From positions 1 to 20,541 of IMG/VR virus record IMGVR_UViG_3300033156_001393: a DNA stretch of 20,541 bases; one strand, written 5' to 3'. Below the pieces are notes generated by a model. That model had not been told where the DNA came from. It worked only from the letters and a program-made list of their open reading frames with translations, and did no database searches. Position numbers and translations under genes: made by a program. Of this stretch, positions 4,019-14,074 are shown one piece after another. The stretch comes from a virus. Position 1 is the stretch's first letter. The number at the start of each line of letters is the position of its first letter.

Positions 4019-4790
4019 AATCCCATACGAAAAACCGTCGGACAGCTTTTACATCGCGTTTACCGGCGACTGGCACGTAGGCCACGCCACCGTAGAATGG
4101 GATTACCTTCACCGTACGCTGAAGTGGATTCGTGAGCACGACGCGTTTTGGGTTGGAATGGGCGATTGGGCTCACGCTATAACGCCGAGTTCGAATGAGC
4201 GGCGGTTTGACTTTGACGAGTTAGACATGCGGTTTTACAATCCGGACAAACAATACCAGAAAGTTTTGGAGTTGTTAGAACCCATCAAGAAAAAAGGGCT
4301 TATGGTTTTGACGGGTAATCATGACGACGTGTTACGTAGGCGTCATTATCACGATTTTGTAGCGTGGCTTGCATGTGGGCTCGACGTGCCTTACATGGGT
4401 GTAAGCGGGTTTTTAAGGCTTATATTTCAACGGGGAAAACACCGTTCGCAACTTGACGTTTACGCGCATCACGGTTATTTTGGCGGTCGCACGAAAGGCG
4501 GTAAGATAAAACGGGTTACGGAAATGGCGAGTTTGTTTGAAGCGGATGTTTACGCTATGGGGCACGTTCACGAAATCGACCACACAACTGTGGTGCGGTT
4601 AACTGTGAACCGGGCGATGAAGGTAACGGAGAAAGTGCAACACTTCCTTGTTACCGGCGGGTTTGTGCGGGGCTACGTTCCGGGCAACCAAACGTATATT
4701 GAACGGAAAATGCTTCAGCCGACAAGGCTTGGAAGTTTGGCTTTACGGTTTTGGCCTGAAACCCGCCGTATAGAGGTGATAGAAATATGA
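3999..4790 (+). CDS. Calcineurin-like metallophosphoesterase, 263 aa
   Basis: All core motifs of the binuclear metallophosphoesterase fold are present in order: GDWHVGH (D24, H26), GDWAH (D56), GNHDD (N107, H108), the HHG motif (H157/H158) and GHVH (H189, H191). Relatives include Mre11/SbcD-type nucleases and phage phosphoesterases acting on DNA ends or nucleotides. Here there is no Rad50-like partner and no Mre11 capping domain, so the substrate is open. It is coupled to the following Cas4-like nuclease gene (ATGA overlap), which supports joint action in DNA end processing or recombination. Confidence 0.85.
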   Translation: MQVLKVKIPYEKPSDSFYIAFTGDWHVGHATVEWDYLHRTLKWIREHDAFWVGMGDWAHAITPSSNERRFDFDELDMRFYNPDKQYQKVLELLEPIKKKGLMVLTGNHDDVLRRRHYHDFVAWLACGLDVPYMGVSGFLRLIFQRGKHRSQLDVYAHHGYFGGRTKGGKIKRVTEMASLFEADVYAMGHVHEIDHTTVVRLTVNRAMKVTEKVQHFLVTGGFVRGYVPGNQTYIERKMLQPTRLGSLALRFWPETRRIEVIEI

Positions 4791-5404
4791 TTGAAGAATT
4801 ACCTAAAGTAATTCAAAACCACATCTTGGAAAAAACAAGTGAAAAATTCATTAGGGAAAACAACCGTATAAGCGTAACAGAACTTTTATATTGCATTCGA
4901 AAAGCGTATTATCAACGTGTCAATCCGAAACCTCTTAGTTTACAGCATGCTTGGTATATTTATCGCGGTGAGCTTTTCGATGAAGTTTGGACAAGTCTTT
5001 TTTCCCGCAACCAATTAACATGTACACATCGCATTCGAGATGTGCCTGTTGTAATTGTAGGTCGCGCTGATTTTATCGATGAGGACGGTGCGGTAGCTGA
5101 TTTAAAGACACATGCAAACTTGAAGTGGTTGGAAAAACCAAAACCAGAACATGTTATGCAAGTGCGGTTTTACGGTTGGTGTCTCGCCGTTCCCAAGGCG
5201 CGGCTTTACTACGTGGATTTCCGCGACTGCAAAAAATTTGACGTTGAAATAGGAGATGTTGAAGCTGACGTTTTAGAACCGCTTGAAAGTTTAGCAGTGG
5301 AACTTTACAGTTGTCTTGAAAAGAAAGTGCCTCCGTTTCCACAGAAAAGTTGGGTTTGCAAGTTTTGCGAGTACCGAGAAGAATGTGAAAGGGACGGTGA
5401 ATAA
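4787..5404 (+). CDS. Cas4-like PD-(D/E)XK nuclease 1
   Basis: The protein has 205 residues. A lone N-terminal cysteine (C36 in ELLYCIRKAYY) and the C-terminal trio C191, C194, C200 (CKFCEYREEC) make the four-cysteine iron-sulfur site of Cas4/RecB-family exonucleases. The nuclease core shows D95 (GRADF) and D105-x-K107 (ADLKTH), then a QVRFYGW helix. The usual motif I histidine is replaced by an acidic residue in RGELFDEVW, which could alter activity. Viral Cas4-like proteins process DNA ends in replication or recombination and some are suspected of acting against host CRISPR adaptation. No cas1, cas2 or CRISPR array is in the window. Confidence 0.85.
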   Translation: MIEELPKVIQNHILEKTSEKFIRENNRISVTELLYCIRKAYYQRVNPKPLSLQHAWYIYRGELFDEVWTSLFSRNQLTCTHRIRDVPVVIVGRADFIDEDGAVADLKTHANLKWLEKPKPEHVMQVRFYGWCLAVPKARLYYVDFRDCKKFDVEIGDVEADVLEPLESLAVELYSCLEKKVPPFPQKSWVCKFCEYREECERDGE

Positions 5405-8405: not shown

Positions 8406-8427
8406 ACTTCGTTTTTAGGTGTCAGTT

Positions 8428-9069
8428 TTGAATGATGTTCCAATTGTTGATTTTTCGCTTCTCGGCGAACAAGATTACGTTACGGCTTACGTGCAAGTAG
8501 ACAATCCGCAGTTGAAGACGATAGCGCGGAAAATCAAAGGGAAAACGCCGAGCGAAATTATAAGGGCCGTGTCAGCTTGGGTTGCCAAACACGTGGACTA
8601 TCCGCTTGACTGGAGAGGAAAGCCGAACGCGAACCGTAAAATTAAACTTTTTAAGTTTGGCGGAAGCGTGTATCACGTTGACCTCAGTAGAGAGTACGGT
8701 TGGCTTAAACCGAACCAGACGGCGACTGTGCGGAAAGGCATTTGCTTCGACACAGCTTGCCTTGCTACGAGTATTTTACGCATTAAAAAAGTGAAGGCGT
8801 ACACGGTGATAGGCGCAATTTTAACAAGCAAAAAACGAAAACTGCAAGGGTTTCACGCTTGGACAGAAGCCGCCGACGAAGAAGGTCAGCATTGGGTGAT
8901 TGAGACGACGGTGCACCCGAACCCGCCTGAACTTGTTTTGGCGAAAGACTTGTACAGCGGTAAATTTCCGCTATTATACGACCCTATCATTTGGTTTAAC
9001 GAGAGCGAATGTTATGTTGACCAAGTGAAAGAGGCTCAATACGAGGCGTTAGGAGTTGACGGATGGTAA
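8428..9069 (+). CDS. Transglutaminase-like cysteine protease/transferase
   Basis: I chose TTG 8428 because AGGTG (8417-8421) is correctly spaced; GTG 8419 in the same frame overlaps that site. The 213-residue protein has the transglutaminase-core pattern: C106 in KGICFDTACLATSILR, H143 in GFHAWTEA, and an acidic residue E159 in HWVIETT where the family usually has Asp. The upstream region (PSEIIRAVSAWVAKHVDYPL) matches the helix before the core. Such folds include papain-like peptidases; the archaeal virus endoisopeptidases PeiW/PeiP that cut pseudomurein belong to this superfamily. An egress role is inferred, and no cell-wall binding repeats are seen. Confidence 0.75.
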   Translation: MNDVPIVDFSLLGEQDYVTAYVQVDNPQLKTIARKIKGKTPSEIIRAVSAWVAKHVDYPLDWRGKPNANRKIKLFKFGGSVYHVDLSREYGWLKPNQTATVRKGICFDTACLATSILRIKKVKAYTVIGAILTSKKRKLQGFHAWTEAADEEGQHWVIETTVHPNPPELVLAKDLYSGKFPLLYDPIIWFNESECYVDQVKEAQYEALGVDGW

Positions 9070-9628
9070 AAACAGTTTTTTCAATTTTCTCGCTGAAGTT
9101 ATGGGCCGTAACGAGTTGCAAAAACAAAAGGCAATTTGGCGAGTTTTCGGCGTCGACTACGAAAAAGAAAAGGAAAAACAAAAGTTGATTTGGGAAAACA
9201 TGAAAGCCAAACAGCCAAGCCGCGTGGAAAGCCCCCCCGGGTATATTTTTAAACGTAAACTTATGTTGAAACGCTTTCAAAAAGTGCTTGTTCCAGCCGA
9301 GTTTGAACGTGAATACCGCGACTTTAAAAACGCCGTGTACCGTCACCTTAGACATCGACCAGACTTTGCGAAACGGATTGACCGGCGGTTAATTGAAAGG
9401 CTTGCACGTATATGGACCCTCTGGTTATTATACGAGAAAAGGTTGAGTATAGGGCCTCCGGAAGAATTGGCGCGGCTTACAGACGGTTTCTACAAGATTG
9501 ACGCTATGCTGTCAAGGGCCCTTGAAGAGTTACATCTCACCCCTTCATTGAGACGTAAAATTACAGCTGACTTGCAAGAGGATGATGAAATCACCAAAAA
9601 ATTGAAAGAGTTGTTAAAAGTGAAGTAA
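9056..9628 (+). CDS. Hypothetical protein, possible small terminase subunit
   Basis: It starts at TTG 9056 within the end of the transglutaminase gene, with GAGG about ten bases upstream; ATG 9101 is an alternative without a site. The 190-residue product is helical and strongly charged (YEKEKEKQKLIW, RHRPDFAKRIDRRLIERLAR), with an acidic-basic C-terminal tail. Position just ahead of the large terminase and the helical character fit a small terminase subunit, but no clear helix-turn-helix can be shown. An HNH gene separates it from the large subunit. Confidence 0.55.
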   Translation: MTDGKNSFFNFLAEVMGRNELQKQKAIWRVFGVDYEKEKEKQKLIWENMKAKQPSRVESPPGYIFKRKLMLKRFQKVLVPAEFEREYRDFKNAVYRHLRHRPDFAKRIDRRLIERLARIWTLWLLYEKRLSIGPPEELARLTDGFYKIDAMLSRALEELHLTPSLRRKITADLQEDDEITKKLKELLKVK

Positions 9629-9630
9629 AA

Positions 9631-10143
9631 ATGATTGTGGAATGTCCCGAATGTGGTTATAAAATTAAATCTGGAGAACGAGGAAGACCAAACAAATATG
9701 GTATAACTCGTTGTACTAGATGTGGGAAACGAATAGTAATTGATCCTGAAAAAGCTTCAGAATATTACAAAATAAAATATGAGAAATATAAAGAAAAGGC
9801 AAAAGAATACTACAAAAAATATTATTTGAAAAAGAAAGAGCAAATTATAGAGAAAAATTCAAAAAAAGCGAGAATCACCCATAATTTATTGAGAAAACAA
9901 AGAATGATTGTTTTGGGAAACAAGTGTAATATTTGCGGTTACAATGAATGTTTGGAGATTCTTGAGTTTCATCATATAAACCAAGAACATAAGTATAATT
10001 CTAATGACTGGAAAACAAAAAGATTTGACCCCGCTGAGTTTCTCCTTGTTTGTCCTAACTGTCACAAAAAAATTCATTTAGGGATTATAAATGTTGAAAA
10101 AAATAATAGAAGACCCAGTCTTGTTTGTGAAAACATTTTTTGA
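9631..10143 (+). CDS. HNH endonuclease with zinc ribbon, AT-rich
   Basis: The 170-residue protein has an N-terminal zinc ribbon (C5, C8, C28, C31), a long lysine- and tyrosine-rich helical linker (about 40-85) and an HNH nuclease domain: C99-x2-C102 (CNICG), LEFHHIN with H114/H115, then C141-x2-C144-H145 (CPNCHKKIH) with H149. The gene is far more AT-rich than the terminase and portal genes and uses ATA and AGA freely, a sign of recent arrival. Its 3' end runs 53 bases into the terminase gene. HNH proteins beside terminases can assist packaging (as HK97 gp74) or be free-standing homing nucleases. Confidence 0.85.
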   Translation: MIVECPECGYKIKSGERGRPNKYGITRCTRCGKRIVIDPEKASEYYKIKYEKYKEKAKEYYKKYYLKKKEQIIEKNSKKARITHNLLRKQRMIVLGNKCNICGYNECLEILEFHHINQEHKYNSNDWKTKRFDPAEFLLVCPNCHKKIHLGIINVEKNNRRPSLVCENIF

Positions 10144-11446
10144 TTTTAACCCCACCGAATACCAAGCGGCGTTACTGAGAGACAGAAGCAAACGAATTGT
10201 AGTAAGATGGTCTCGACAGGCTGGAAAAACCACGACCATCGCCCTACGAGCAATTTGGTACGCAATCACACATCCAAAAACGCTTACACTTATCGTGGCC
10301 CCATCGCTTCGGCAAAGCATGATAATGAGCGACCGCATACAAGACTTTCTAATGGGCTTGCCTAAAAAATGGCGAAGTTTACTGATCGACAAGTTGCAAC
10401 GTACGGTTGTGAGGTTTAAAAATGGAAGTCGAATCGTGGCGCTACCGAATAGCCCTCAGTTACTACGAGGATACACCGCACATCAAGTTATCTGTGACGA
10501 AGCCGCAAGCTAACGCATACACGGCGTTAGCCGGTAATTTTTCCGAGACGATGAACTGGTGTTTTACAACGTCTTATATCCTATGTTGGCCACCACGGAC
10601 GGTGTTTTGGTCGTGTCATCGACCCCATGGTCGACGGACTCGGTGTTCTACCAAATGTGTATGAGCGAGCATTTCAGCAAGCACGTGGTGAATTGGAAAG
10701 AAGTTGTTGAAAGCGGCTTGATGAAAAAAGAGTTTATTGAGGAAATGCGCGAGCAACTTCCTCTCGAACGTTTTCAAAGGGAGTTTGAAGCCAAGTTTGT
10801 TGAGGATGTGGATCGGTGGCTTCCTCAAAGCTTGATTGCGAGCTGTATAAACTCGGAGTTGGAGCCCTACAGTTTTCATGATTCGCCGAAGGGCGCGTTT
10901 TACGTGGGCGTCGACTTCGGCAAACACCAAGACTACAGCGTGGTCGCGGTTGTCGAAGCCGTCGGCAAGGCCCTTAAGCTTGTACACGTTCACCGGTTTC
11001 CACTTGAAACGGAATATGCAAGCGTGATAGGCTACATCAAAAGCTTGTGCGACCGTTGGCAAACCGTGAGGGCCGTGTACGCTGACCAAACCGGCGTCGG
11101 CGACTACATTGTTAGTGATATGAAAAACGCGGGTATTACCAACGTCACCGGTATTACCTTCACCGTCGCCACAAAAGAAGAGATGGCTACAATACTACGA
11201 GAAAAATGTAGGCAAAACATGTTTCAAATTCCCTACGTGCCCGCGAAAGGCCCCCGCGACATTGACTTGCCCGCCGAGTTGAACGTGGAACGTTACGAGT
11301 TGACTAAGACGGGGCACATCAAGTTTAGTCATCCTGAGGGCACGCATGACGACGTGTTTTGGGCTGTCGCGTTGGCTGTATACGCGGCCGCGCAACACCC
11401 GTTTAAAGGCGGATGGGTAGATTTTGGAGAGTTAAGTGAAAAATGA
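10091..11446 (+). CDS. terL: Large terminase subunit, interrupted by a 30-base intron
   Basis: The terminase is the ATP-driven DNA packaging motor and cuts viral DNA to length. Exon 1 (10091-10507) has the adenine/P-loop region WSRQAGKTT (about 40-48) and the Walker B strand HQVICDEAA. Exon 2 (10538-11446) begins FFRDDELVFY, then the coupling motif VVSSTPW and a RNase H-like nuclease with D265 (VGVDFG), D322 (YADQTG) and D410/D411 (THDDVFW). Both parts share one frame but are split by in-frame TAA codons at 10511 and 10535. Removing 10508-10537 gives a 441-residue protein with the canonical DEAAF motif. Unspliced RNA would give only 140 residues. The N-terminus (DPVLFVKTFFDFNPTEYQ) is typical for the family. 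Confidence 0.9.
10508..10537 (+). other. Candidate archaeal BHB intron (30 bases) in terL
   Basis: The fold matches the bulge-helix-bulge substrate of the archaeal splicing endonuclease. Inner helix: GCTAACGC 10509-10516 with GCGTTAGC 10524-10531, loop ATACACG. 5' bulge: C10506 A10507 | A10508. Central four-pair helix: GCCG 10502-10505 with CGGT 10532-10535 (last pair G-U). 3' bulge: A10536 A10537 | T10538. A short outer helix (GAA 10499-10501 with TTT 10539-10541) is weak. Cutting after the second base of each bulge removes exactly 30 bases and restores DEAAFF in frame. Confidence 0.85.
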
Positions 11447-11523
11447 TAAAGAATTGGCGTTTTTGGAAGCGGCGTAAACGTAAGGTTTGGCTTGCTTTTG
11501 GAAAAGTGGGAAAACAAAAATGA
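11443..11523 (+). CDS. Basic micro-protein, 26 aa
   Basis: ATG 11443 overlaps the terminase stop (ATGA), and its TGA 11521-11523 overlaps the ATG 11520 of the next gene in the same way. The product is very basic and aromatic (MIKNWRFWKRRKRKVWLAFG...). The double ATGA chaining argues that the frame is translated at least for coupling between terminase and the next gene. Function unknown; it may be only a translational bridge. Confidence 0.4.
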   Translation: MIKNWRFWKRRKRKVWLAFGKVGKQK

Positions 11524-12041
11524 AGTTTACTGTTACTCGTAGCATGCCCGCCATGTGGAAATGTATTCAATGCGGCGAATGTTGCAAACACTTGGTAGGC
11601 CGAAGGTTCGGCATGGCCATCACACCCGCCGAGAAAACAAGGCTTGAAACATTGGCGCGGCGAAGAGGCATCACAGTAAACTTTCAACCTTTAACATGGA
11701 ACGGCTACAAAGTCACACTTTACCAATTCGCTACGAGTATTTGCCCCTTCCTCGACAAAAACACGAACCGTTGCCGAATTTATGAGTGGCGGCCTCTCGC
11801 CTGCAAAGCTTACCCGCTTCATCCTCTCGGCGTAAGCGACTGCACGGCTCTTGACCAGCTTCAACGTCGAGGTTTTCGCGTAACGTTTCCACCACATCTC
11901 TACGTGGCCGCTAAAAAATATTTGGTCTCGGTTATGCCCTTGATTCGGGGCGCCGTTAAAAGGTATAATCTTAACCGCGGATGGGAATTGAACGTTCCCT
12001 TCCAGTTGAAGTATAGGCCTACTTTTGGAAGGAGTTTATAA
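11520..12041 (+). CDS. YkgJ-like zinc/iron-sulfur cluster protein, 173 aa
   Basis: ATG 11520 is chosen over an upstream in-frame TTG 11487 because of the ATGA overlap and because the family begins near the first cysteines. The cysteine pattern is typical: C15, C18, C21, C22 (CIQCGECC), C75 (ICPFLD), C85 (NRCRIYEWRPLACKAYPL, with C95) and C108. This family (formerly UPF0153) binds a metal cluster; its biochemical role is poorly known. It is unusual between terminase and portal. A part in modifying or repairing virion proteins would be a guess. Confidence 0.8.
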   Translation: MKFTVTRSMPAMWKCIQCGECCKHLVGRRFGMAITPAEKTRLETLARRRGITVNFQPLTWNGYKVTLYQFATSICPFLDKNTNRCRIYEWRPLACKAYPLHPLGVSDCTALDQLQRRGFRVTFPPHLYVAAKKYLVSVMPLIRGAVKRYNLNRGWELNVPFQLKYRPTFGRSL

Positions 12042-13403
12042 ATGTTTGAAAAATTGAAGGAGTTGTTTAAGCCTAAACAGCGAAGCAGTTGGGTTAGCGT
12101 GGCCGGTCGAGAACAAGGAAGTTACTTGGTAGCTTCCACAGAACAAGTGGGCTCTGCAGGCGGCATAAGGGCTCGTTTAGAAAAAGCCCAACTTATCGAG
12201 GCAACCGTAAACCCACAAACCGCAACAAAACTGACAAGCCTGCCGTTTACCGGTGTTGAATATCCAGAAGATTTTAACGAATTTCAAAATTATTTGGACG
12301 CTTATTATTATGTGCCCTACATTGCAAGAGCCGTGGACGTCAAGCAGTTTATGATTTGGCAAATGGGCTACGACCTTGAAAGCGAAAGTGTCAGAGCGAA
12401 AAAGTCAGTTGAAGACTTGCTAAAGCAAATTCAAGCCGACATCGTTATTCGTGAGGGCACGCTTTACGCGTTGATTTTCGGAAACATGTATTGGCGAATC
12501 AGCCGTTCCGGCGATAAAATCAGTTTGACACCGCTCAACCCTATGAAAATAGGCATTCGACTTGACAAAAACAAGGAAAAAGTTGAAGCGTATGTTTATC
12601 AGCCTCGCTTCGGCAAAAAAGAAGAGTATAAGCCTAAAGAAATCCTTCATTTAAAGTTTAACGCCGAGCCGTGGGCGCTTTTCGGTATTTCAACTTTGCG
12701 GAGAGTAATCCCAACTGTGAAAGCCATTTTGTTCATGGAGGAAAAATTGCCTTGGATTGCAAGGCGAAGGGCTGACCCCTTACTTAGCATAGGCTTCTGG
12801 TATGAAGATGAGAAAGGCCGGAAAGTTCCTCTCAGTAGCGAAGAGTGTGAGCGATGGAAAAAACAAGTTTTAGCGCGGACGCCTGGCAAAGACATTTTCC
12901 ACGACGGTTGCATTCACATCGAAGAAGTTTACAAGTCAAGCGGTATCGCGGCGAGACAAGCAATCGAGCCTTTACTTTCACATTTCCGCGAAAACCTTAT
13001 TGCGGGGTTGGGTGTTCCGGAGCCCGCTTTAGGCTTTGGAGGCACAACTACGCAAGCGACGGCGGAATATCAAGAGCGGATTCTTGAGGCGGAAGTGAGG
13101 GCGTATCAAAGGGCGCTTAAACGGATGCATGAGCAATACATCTTTTCGTTGGTTGAGGGTGGTGAAAAAGTGCGGATGGTGTTCCGACCGTTGAAAGAAG
13201 AGGATAAAGCTCAATTGTCGAAAGTGTTGCAGGGTGAAATTGAGCACGGTATTGTTTCGCCGAAGTGGGCTAGGCAAAGGCTTGGCTACCCGGACGAGGC
13301 TGGAGAGGGCACGGTTATTGACCAGCGTCTTGTCCCAAGTTTTGAGAAGCCGGAAGGTGAAAAAGAAGAAAAAGTGATAGAGTTGGATTGGATGTATGAA
13401 TAA
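12042..13403 (+). CDS. Portal protein
   Basis: ATG 12042 follows GGAAGGAG with suitable spacing. The 453-residue protein is of the HK97/SPP1-type portal group: an N-terminal region with YYYVPYIARAVDVKQFMIW, a central strand set (LYALIFGNMYWRI, LTPLNPMKIGI, EILHLKFN, FGISTLRRVI) and the C-terminal helical part with GLGVPEPALGFGG followed by TTTQATAEYQERILEAEV. Twelve copies form the ring at one capsid vertex through which DNA passes. It follows the terminase by two small genes and overlaps the next gene by one base, as expected for a head module. Confidence 0.85.
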   Translation: MFEKLKELFKPKQRSSWVSVAGREQGSYLVASTEQVGSAGGIRARLEKAQLIEATVNPQTATKLTSLPFTGVEYPEDFNEFQNYLDAYYYVPYIARAVDVKQFMIWQMGYDLESESVRAKKSVEDLLKQIQADIVIREGTLYALIFGNMYWRISRSGDKISLTPLNPMKIGIRLDKNKEKVEAYVYQPRFGKKEEYKPKEILHLKFNAEPWALFGISTLRRVIPTVKAILFMEEKLPWIARRRADPLLSIGFWYEDEKGRKVPLSSEECERWKKQVLARTPGKDIFHDGCIHIEEVYKSSGIAARQAIEPLLSHFRENLIAGLGVPEPALGFGGTTTQATAEYQERILEAEVRAYQRALKRMHEQYIFSLVEGGEKVRMVFRPLKEEDKAQLSKVLQGEIEHGIVSPKWARQRLGYPDEAGEGTVIDQRLVPSFEKPEGEKEEKVIELDWMYE

Positions 13404-14074
13404 TGTTAGATAATTTAATAAGTAATTTCATTGACAAAAAAGTGATTGAACGAAAATATAAAATAGGCGTTTATTATCCAAGTGAGTTGCCTTTCTGTCT
13501 CCGCAAACAATTTTTCAGATACACTGTCCCCAAAGACGTCGCACCGGAACAAAAAAGAGTGTTTGGTGTCGGTTGGGTGTGGCATCAATTCATCTACCAA
13601 GTTTTAAAGAACAGCAAAGACGTAAAAGTTTTAGAAGTAGAGAAAACTTATCGGCTTAAACATCCATCAAAAAAGATAATTTTAGAATGTACTCCCGATG
13701 CTAAAATACAAAAAAATGGAAAACAATATTTAATTGAAATAAAATCTGCCAAAGCCTTAACACAAATAACGGAACCTCAAATTGAACATGTTTTTCAAAT
13801 AATGCCTTATATGTATGCTACACAAACAAAAAAGGCAATTCTCCTTTACATTCATAAAACAACATTGGAAACAAAAGAATTTCAAATAAATTTTGAACCG
13901 GAAAAATTAACATTGATGTTTGAACGTGCTAGACGGTTAGATGAAGCTTTAAGAAAAAAAGTTTTGCCCTCACGTGTAGGGGCTGGTGGTGAGTGGCAGT
14001 GTAAAAATTGTGAATATCGAATTGAATGTGAAACTTTCATCAAAACCTCGCAAAAATTGGAGGGTGAAAAGTAA
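13403..14074 (+). CDS. Cas4-like PD-(D/E)XK nuclease 2, AT-rich
   Basis: The 223-residue protein has all Cas4 hallmarks: C32 (LPFCLRKQFF), H61 (GWVWHQF), D99 (CTPDAKI), E112-x-K114 (IEIKSAK), a Q-rich helix IEHVFQIMPYMYA, and C200, C203, C209 (CKNCEYRIEC). Unlike nuclease 1 it keeps the motif I histidine. It is clearly more AT-rich than the portal and protease genes around it, and sits inside the head module where such a gene is not usually expected, suggesting insertion. Likely a 5'-3' exonuclease or end-processing nuclease; an anti-CRISPR-adaptation role is possible but unproven. Confidence 0.85.
   Translation: MLDNLISNFIDKKVIERKYKIGVYYPSELPFCLRKQFFRYTVPKDVAPEQKRVFGVGWVWHQFIYQVLKNSKDVKVLEVEKTYRLKHPSKKIILECTPDAKIQKNGKQYLIEIKSAKALTQITEPQIEHVFQIMPYMYATQTKKAILLYIHKTTLETKEFQINFEPEKLTLMFERARRLDEALRKKVLPSRVGAGGEWQCKNCEYRIECETFIKTSQKLEGEK

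Follow-up and report, generated by a model that had tools for sequence, protein, structure and literature searches.

A free-standing HNH endonuclease gene beside a predicted bulge-helix-bulge mini-intron in the terminase gene of a probable Bathyarchaeia virus: a tentative case for homing in trans

In the Vibrio phage ICP1, the terminase gene terL is spliced, as demonstrated by RNA-seq and RT-PCR, and a free-standing homing endonuclease gene (HEG) of the T5orf172 type stands beside its N-terminal exon, an arrangement that was called collaborative homing (PMC10448857). In phage T4, the HNH endonuclease MobE is encoded between nrdA and nrdB and acts on nrdB, with trans homing of the nrdB intron (PMC2988022). 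Introns of the bulge-helix-bulge (BHB) type have been described in the archaeal cbf5 pre-mRNA, where they are 16-44 bases long, have been demonstrated to be spliced and are too short to encode their own nuclease (PMC2738675); the same paper cites Peng et al. for putative introns of 12 bases in an archaeal virus genome. Furthermore, the BHB introns of archaeal rRNA can carry their own homing endonucleases and be mobile (PMC4496867, PMC6125680).

The locus discussed here is part of a 20.5-kb virus record (the window, i.e., the whole stretch of DNA that was analysed), which contains a tailed-virus head module. A gene at 9056-9628 is followed by an HNH gene (9631-10143) and by terL (10091-11446), with a portal gene and a weak match to capsid downstream (Table 1).

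Table 1. Positions of the features of the terL locus, numbered along the window
Feature	Position	Strand	Basis or remark
Gene before the HNH gene	9056..9628	+	Position suits a small terminase; no family match
Free-standing HNH endonuclease gene	9631..10143	+	170 aa; phrog_2255 match, 4.1e-16; 29% GC
HNH core, CNIC ... LEFHH ... CPNCH ... H	9925..10077	+	Alignment with phage homologues
53-base overlap, HNH tail out of frame within the terL start	10091..10143	+	Coordinates, homologue alignment
terL exon 1, start to Walker B VICDEAA	10091..10507	+	Family matches, translation after excision
BHB central helix, 5' strand GCCG	10502..10505	+	RNA fold
BHB bulge 1, CAA; predicted cut 10507/10508	10506..10508	+	RNA fold, shuffles
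Predicted BHB mini-intron, AGCTAACGCATACACGGCGTTAGCCGGTAA, 30 bases	10508..10537	+	Comparison with relatives, fold
Intron hairpin, 8-bp stem GCTAACGC/GCGTTAGC, 7-base loop	10509..10531	+	RNA fold
BHB central helix, 3' strand CGGT	10532..10535	+	RNA fold
BHB bulge 2, AAT; predicted cut 10537/10538	10536..10538	+	Fold, shuffles
terL exon 2, rest of the ATPase and RNase H-like nuclease domain	10538..11446	+	Family matches

terL, its insert and its relatives

Compared with the relatives L002 and L003, terL of the window carries an insert of exactly 30 bases, located after the acidic Walker B pair DE (D136, E137) and following A139. Two in-frame TAA codons lie within the insert, which has no ORF, so that full-length TerL needs the insert to be removed; excision of 10508-10537 yields a 441-aa TerL that has no stop and in which the sequence DEAAFF is restored. 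The insert folds as a 3-4-3 BHB, with the 4-bp helix GCCG/CGGU between the 3-base bulges CAA and AAU, and the canonical cuts, each behind the second bulge base, rebuild the gene, giving exactly the product predicted from the relatives. When the insert was shuffled 400,000 times, a BHB cut at the insertion boundaries arose only twice. The intron side of the structure is strong and the exon-exon helix weak, and both exons retain high identity to the relatives. It is very probable, on the strength of this predicted structure, that the insert is removed by splicing. The preliminary description of this DNA had called it a BHB intron in a conserved motif, too small to encode its own endonuclease, and the fold with its exact boundaries and restored frame, the position directly after the Walker B residues and the lack of an internal ORF bear this out.

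The cellular genomes with terL relatives are nearly all assemblies of Bathyarchaeia (Candidatus Bathyarchaeota), and a relative is present in 119 of 257 genomes of this class. Because the relatives are concentrated there, the host probably belongs to Bathyarchaeia. The relatives of the window virus are proviruses or viruses of Bathyarchaeia, and the tRNA-splicing endonuclease family PF01974 occurs in 60 of the 61 genomes of the class that were sampled. The closest relative is L002, with 80% identity, and a maximum-likelihood tree places the window as its sister (97/94), with L003, L145, L146 and L176 next.

Several terL relatives in Bathyarchaeia contain a single in-frame stop (L092 at ~5400, G045:C52, G085:C1, G099:C110, G134:C19 and G055:C56), which is TAG in most; that of L092 lies just ahead of the CDE motif, at a position that is Tyr in relatives. 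These stops could be due to decay, to sequencing error or to TAG being decoded as an amino acid. In addition, a terL segment is partly duplicated downstream of an intact terL in L005 (4998-5201) and L073 (7310-7522).

A different element occupies the same motif in L129, a Bathyarchaeota provirus contig, whose terL contains a mini-intein of ~140 aa (L129:2408-2830) between VVY and CDEMN (Pfam Intein_splicing, 1.9e-11; both TIGR intein end models match). It is inserted five codons (15 bases) upstream of the site homologous to that of the window's intron. Thus, the motif has been invaded at least twice in this terL family by different elements, and the intein marks it as invasion-prone. The other interrupted terL genes were considered as carriers of BHB introns and rejected, being explained by the intein of L129, by frameshifts or by point stops, and viral contigs searched for exact copies of the intron hairpin gave four matches, all unrelated and inside other regions.

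The homologue of the 9056-9628 gene in L002 (L002:3012-3557) directly abuts terL, with no HNH gene between them. Among near kin the gene preceding terL is common to the window and L002, and in L003 (upstream of 3503) it is an unrelated short ORF. The HNH gene had been placed between a possible small terminase gene and terL; the position stands, and the small-terminase identity found no match in family searches with the 9056-9628 product. The packaging/head module of the window also includes a transglutaminase-like protein (8419-9069) and a protein with a CxxCxxCC metal-chelating domain (11487-12041). Elsewhere in the window, the ORFs 13403-14074 and 4787-5404 encode C-terminal Cys clusters (CKNCEYRIEC, CKFCEYREEC) that, on reading of the sequence, are suggestive of Cas4/PD-(D/E)XK nucleases, and the ORF 13403-14074 resembles the HNH gene in being AT-rich (33% GC).

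The HNH gene and the distribution of both elements

The HNH protein combines a CxxC-rich N-terminus (CPEC, CTRC) with a complete Cys-paired core, whose metal and catalytic positions are kept in the phage homologues; C99, C102, H114, H115, C141, N143, C144, H145 and H149 are invariant in the alignment. Besides the phrog_2255 HNH endonuclease family, it matches phrog_3106, and its scores against the Pfam HNH models are all under the model cut-offs. The similarity to its homologues stops at about residue 155, where terL starts, and the final ~16 residues are terL sequence read in another frame. With terL starting at 10091 and the HNH stop at 10143, the gene does end 53 bases inside terL, as first described. 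Its description as compositionally foreign is equally well founded, since its GC content is 29.2% (GC3 23.4%), compared with a mean of 42.8% (s.d. 4.6; GC3 42.1%) for the remaining genes of the window. It is the most AT-rich of them, and only ~1% of 460-base stretches are comparably AT-rich.

Genes of the same kind occur next to other genes in phages. In Escherichia phage nataliec, a free-standing HNH gene of the families phrog_2255/3106 overlaps a tRNA gene, and in a T5-like phage a related unannotated ORF lies directly ahead of tRNA-Ala. A survey of 74 ORFs beside members of the HNH family in viral contigs found varied neighbours, such as NrdD, endolysin, tail fibre and other endonucleases; in the matches listed, which cover the 25 commonest families, those matched by at least two neighbours included homing endonucleases, NrdD and endolysin. 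The HNH gene of the window has the features of a free-standing HEG, i.e., a complete core, a gene of its own between other genes, absence from close relatives and a family with varied neighbours, and it is likely that the product is a homing endonuclease.

Both the intron and an HNH gene at terL are absent from L002, L003, L145, L146 and L176. On a wider scale, no further intron was found at this site among 145 distinct terL genes, and in the 136 distinct relatives with at least 600 bases ahead of terL, that stretch of 600 bases had no HNH-like ORF. An HNH gene of another type lies ~1.6 kb upstream of the intron-less terL of L087 (1/111). When 35 related virus records were searched with phrog_2255, a single HNH gene emerged, again of another type; it belongs to the record of L012, where it stands on the other strand ~5 kb from an intact intron-less terL. 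The HNH protein as query had no match in the archaeal genomes carrying terL relatives and only weak relatives in the whole class Bathyarchaeia, the best of which (L140/L183) have no terL beside them. A search for near-identical intron-less alleles found none.

Both elements are thus far seen in one genome, ~0.4 kb apart, and neither alone in any sampled relative. With 137 genomes and random placement of both, they would fall in the same one with a chance of ~1/137, a post hoc figure that ignores relatedness. The joint absence from the sister and the other sampled relatives fits a gain of both in the same lineage. The preliminary description had proposed co-occurrence in relatives as a check on its idea and independent occurrence as its refutation. 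The first yielded a single genome with both elements and sampled relatives with neither, and the second was not meaningfully encountered, as the HNH genes of L087 and of the L012 record are of other types and lie ~1.6 and 5 kb from terL.

Third-base identity between the window and L002 is 0.32 in codons 1-180 and 0.47 beyond (p = 0.004). These codons resemble a co-conversion tract, but control pairs lacking both intron and HNH gene (L145-L147, L146-L081) show equal swings; synonymous sites are near saturation even in the comparison with L002, so that such a tract would be unreadable.

Explanations for the shared location

The layout of the locus, an intron without its own endonuclease and an HEG adjacent to it but outside, is that of a collaborative pair. 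An HNH enzyme encoded at the junction of terL and the preceding gene would most likely have its target in the adjoining, highly conserved terL, in or close to the Walker B site now occupied by the 30-base BHB intron. In a mixed infection, the enzyme would cut intron-less terL, and in repair from the HNH-bearing genome the intron and, ~0.4 kb from it, the HNH gene would be copied together. The host tRNA-splicing endonuclease and the RtcB ligase would then excise the intron from the mRNA and restore TerL. The steps of this scheme differ in how far they can be trusted. The case for terL as the HNH target is evenly balanced, cleavage at the intron site itself is more doubtful, and mobilisation of the terL BHB intron in trans by the free-standing HNH enzyme of a Bathyarchaeia virus is rather unlikely. 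Collaborative homing, which had been put forward from the DNA alone, is therefore retained as a tentative explanation: the homing-type HNH family, the exact insert with its frame-restoring BHB cuts, the splicing endonuclease of the host class, the joint absence from relatives, a layout like that of published loci and the mini-intein of L129 as a sign that mobile elements enter the motif speak for it, and a co-occurrence observed once and spotted after the fact speaks against it. Also counted against it are that the archaeal intron endonucleases named in PMC6125680 are LAGLIDADG enzymes and that no nuclease is invoked for the cbf5 mini-introns of like size (PMC2738675).

That the two elements arrived independently has about the same likelihood as collaborative homing; it is rated slightly higher, although it too falls a little short of an even case. 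The HNH gene would then be a free-standing homing endonuclease gene aimed elsewhere, whether at some other stretch of terL, at the gene upstream or at the junction between genes. The BHB mini-intron would have come by its own route, e.g., RNA-level insertion, and the two would be close because both are attracted to a locus that is conserved and essential. Clusters of free-standing HEGs occur near terminase and further essential genes that have no introns (PMC10448857), the HNH family adjoins many kinds of genes, and the cbf5 introns of 16-44 bases and the viral inserts of 12 bases indicate that tiny introns arise without a nuclease (PMC2738675). A free-standing HEG may have its cut site hundreds or thousands of bases away from itself (PMC2988022), which leaves room for a target elsewhere and also means that a spacing of 0.4 kb is no obstacle to collaborative homing. 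Against independent arrival, both elements are absent in the sampled relatives (0/136 for HNH-like ORFs; 145 terL genes) and yet stand together here.

A role of the HNH protein as a packaging accessory like HK97 gp74, acting with terminase at the packaging site and unrelated to the intron, is improbable. The gene does adjoin terL directly, as packaging HNH genes do, but its product has no BLAST similarity to HK97 gp74 and shares no PHROG family with it, close relatives with the same terminase do without an HNH gene beside terL (0/136 within 600 bases upstream), the phage homologues lie among tRNA genes, and no terminase family had at least two matches among the 74 neighbour ORFs in the matches listed (25 commonest families). 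The neighbour survey and the family membership therefore speak for a free-standing gene of homing type rather than a packaging accessory. Least probable of all is that terL is broken, or that the insert is bypassed or read through in translation or is an assembly error, since the single metagenomic contig and the weak exon-exon helix next to the central helix are outweighed by BHB cut sites that coincide with the boundaries of the exact 30-base insert (2/400,000 shuffles), by two exons highly identical to relatives and by two in-frame TAA codons that oppose simple read-through. A bypass of the T4 gene 60 type with matching codons was also considered and rejected, because DEAAFF would need TAA as the landing codon.

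If collaborative homing is correct, an HNH enzyme would here be paired with a protein-spliced archaeal intron for the first time in the literature searched, where, with subscription journals mostly outside the search, no paper was found with an HNH enzyme serving a BHB intron or reporting such an intron in the terminase gene of a virus. It would extend collaborative homing from phage introns to an intron spliced by the host and explain the spread of introns with no room for any coding sequence. A nuclease that is encoded close by and recognises the intron site would be a testable answer to how BHB mini-introns enter archaeal protein genes. Even apart from the nuclease, if the terminase gene of an archaeal virus contains a BHB intron, genes of this sort are liable to be mistaken for broken ones, and inteins and introns alike invade a single conserved motif of terL.

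Comparison with known systems

The locus resembles that of ICP1 in having an intron-split terL and an adjacent free-standing HEG. It differs in that ICP1 is a bacterial phage with a T5orf172 enzyme, whereas the window probably derives from a virus of archaea and has an HNH gene and a 30-base BHB intron whose splicing is predicted. As with MobE of T4, the HNH gene is free-standing, lies in the junction before the intron-bearing gene and is close to or overlaps its neighbours. However, the nrdB intron carries the defunct I-TevIII gene, whereas the intron of the window has 30 bases and no ORF and is predicted to be protein-spliced. The HK97 gp74 gene is likewise an HNH gene beside terminase, but the two belong to different sequence families and the window's relatives have no HNH gene beside terL.

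As regards the intron, the resemblance to cbf5 lies in a tiny BHB intron at a functionally critical codon of a protein-coding gene. In contrast to cbf5, a cellular gene with demonstrated splicing, the gene split here is a viral packaging gene and splicing is predicted. The inserts of Peng et al., as far as they are described in the citing paper, are also tiny, in-frame and in protein genes of an archaeal virus, but they have 12 bases and are possibly unspliced, whereas the 30 bases and two stops of the present insert call for excision. Finally, the mobile archaeal rRNA introns hold their endonuclease inside the intron, whereas the candidate in the window stands outside it and is of the HNH type.
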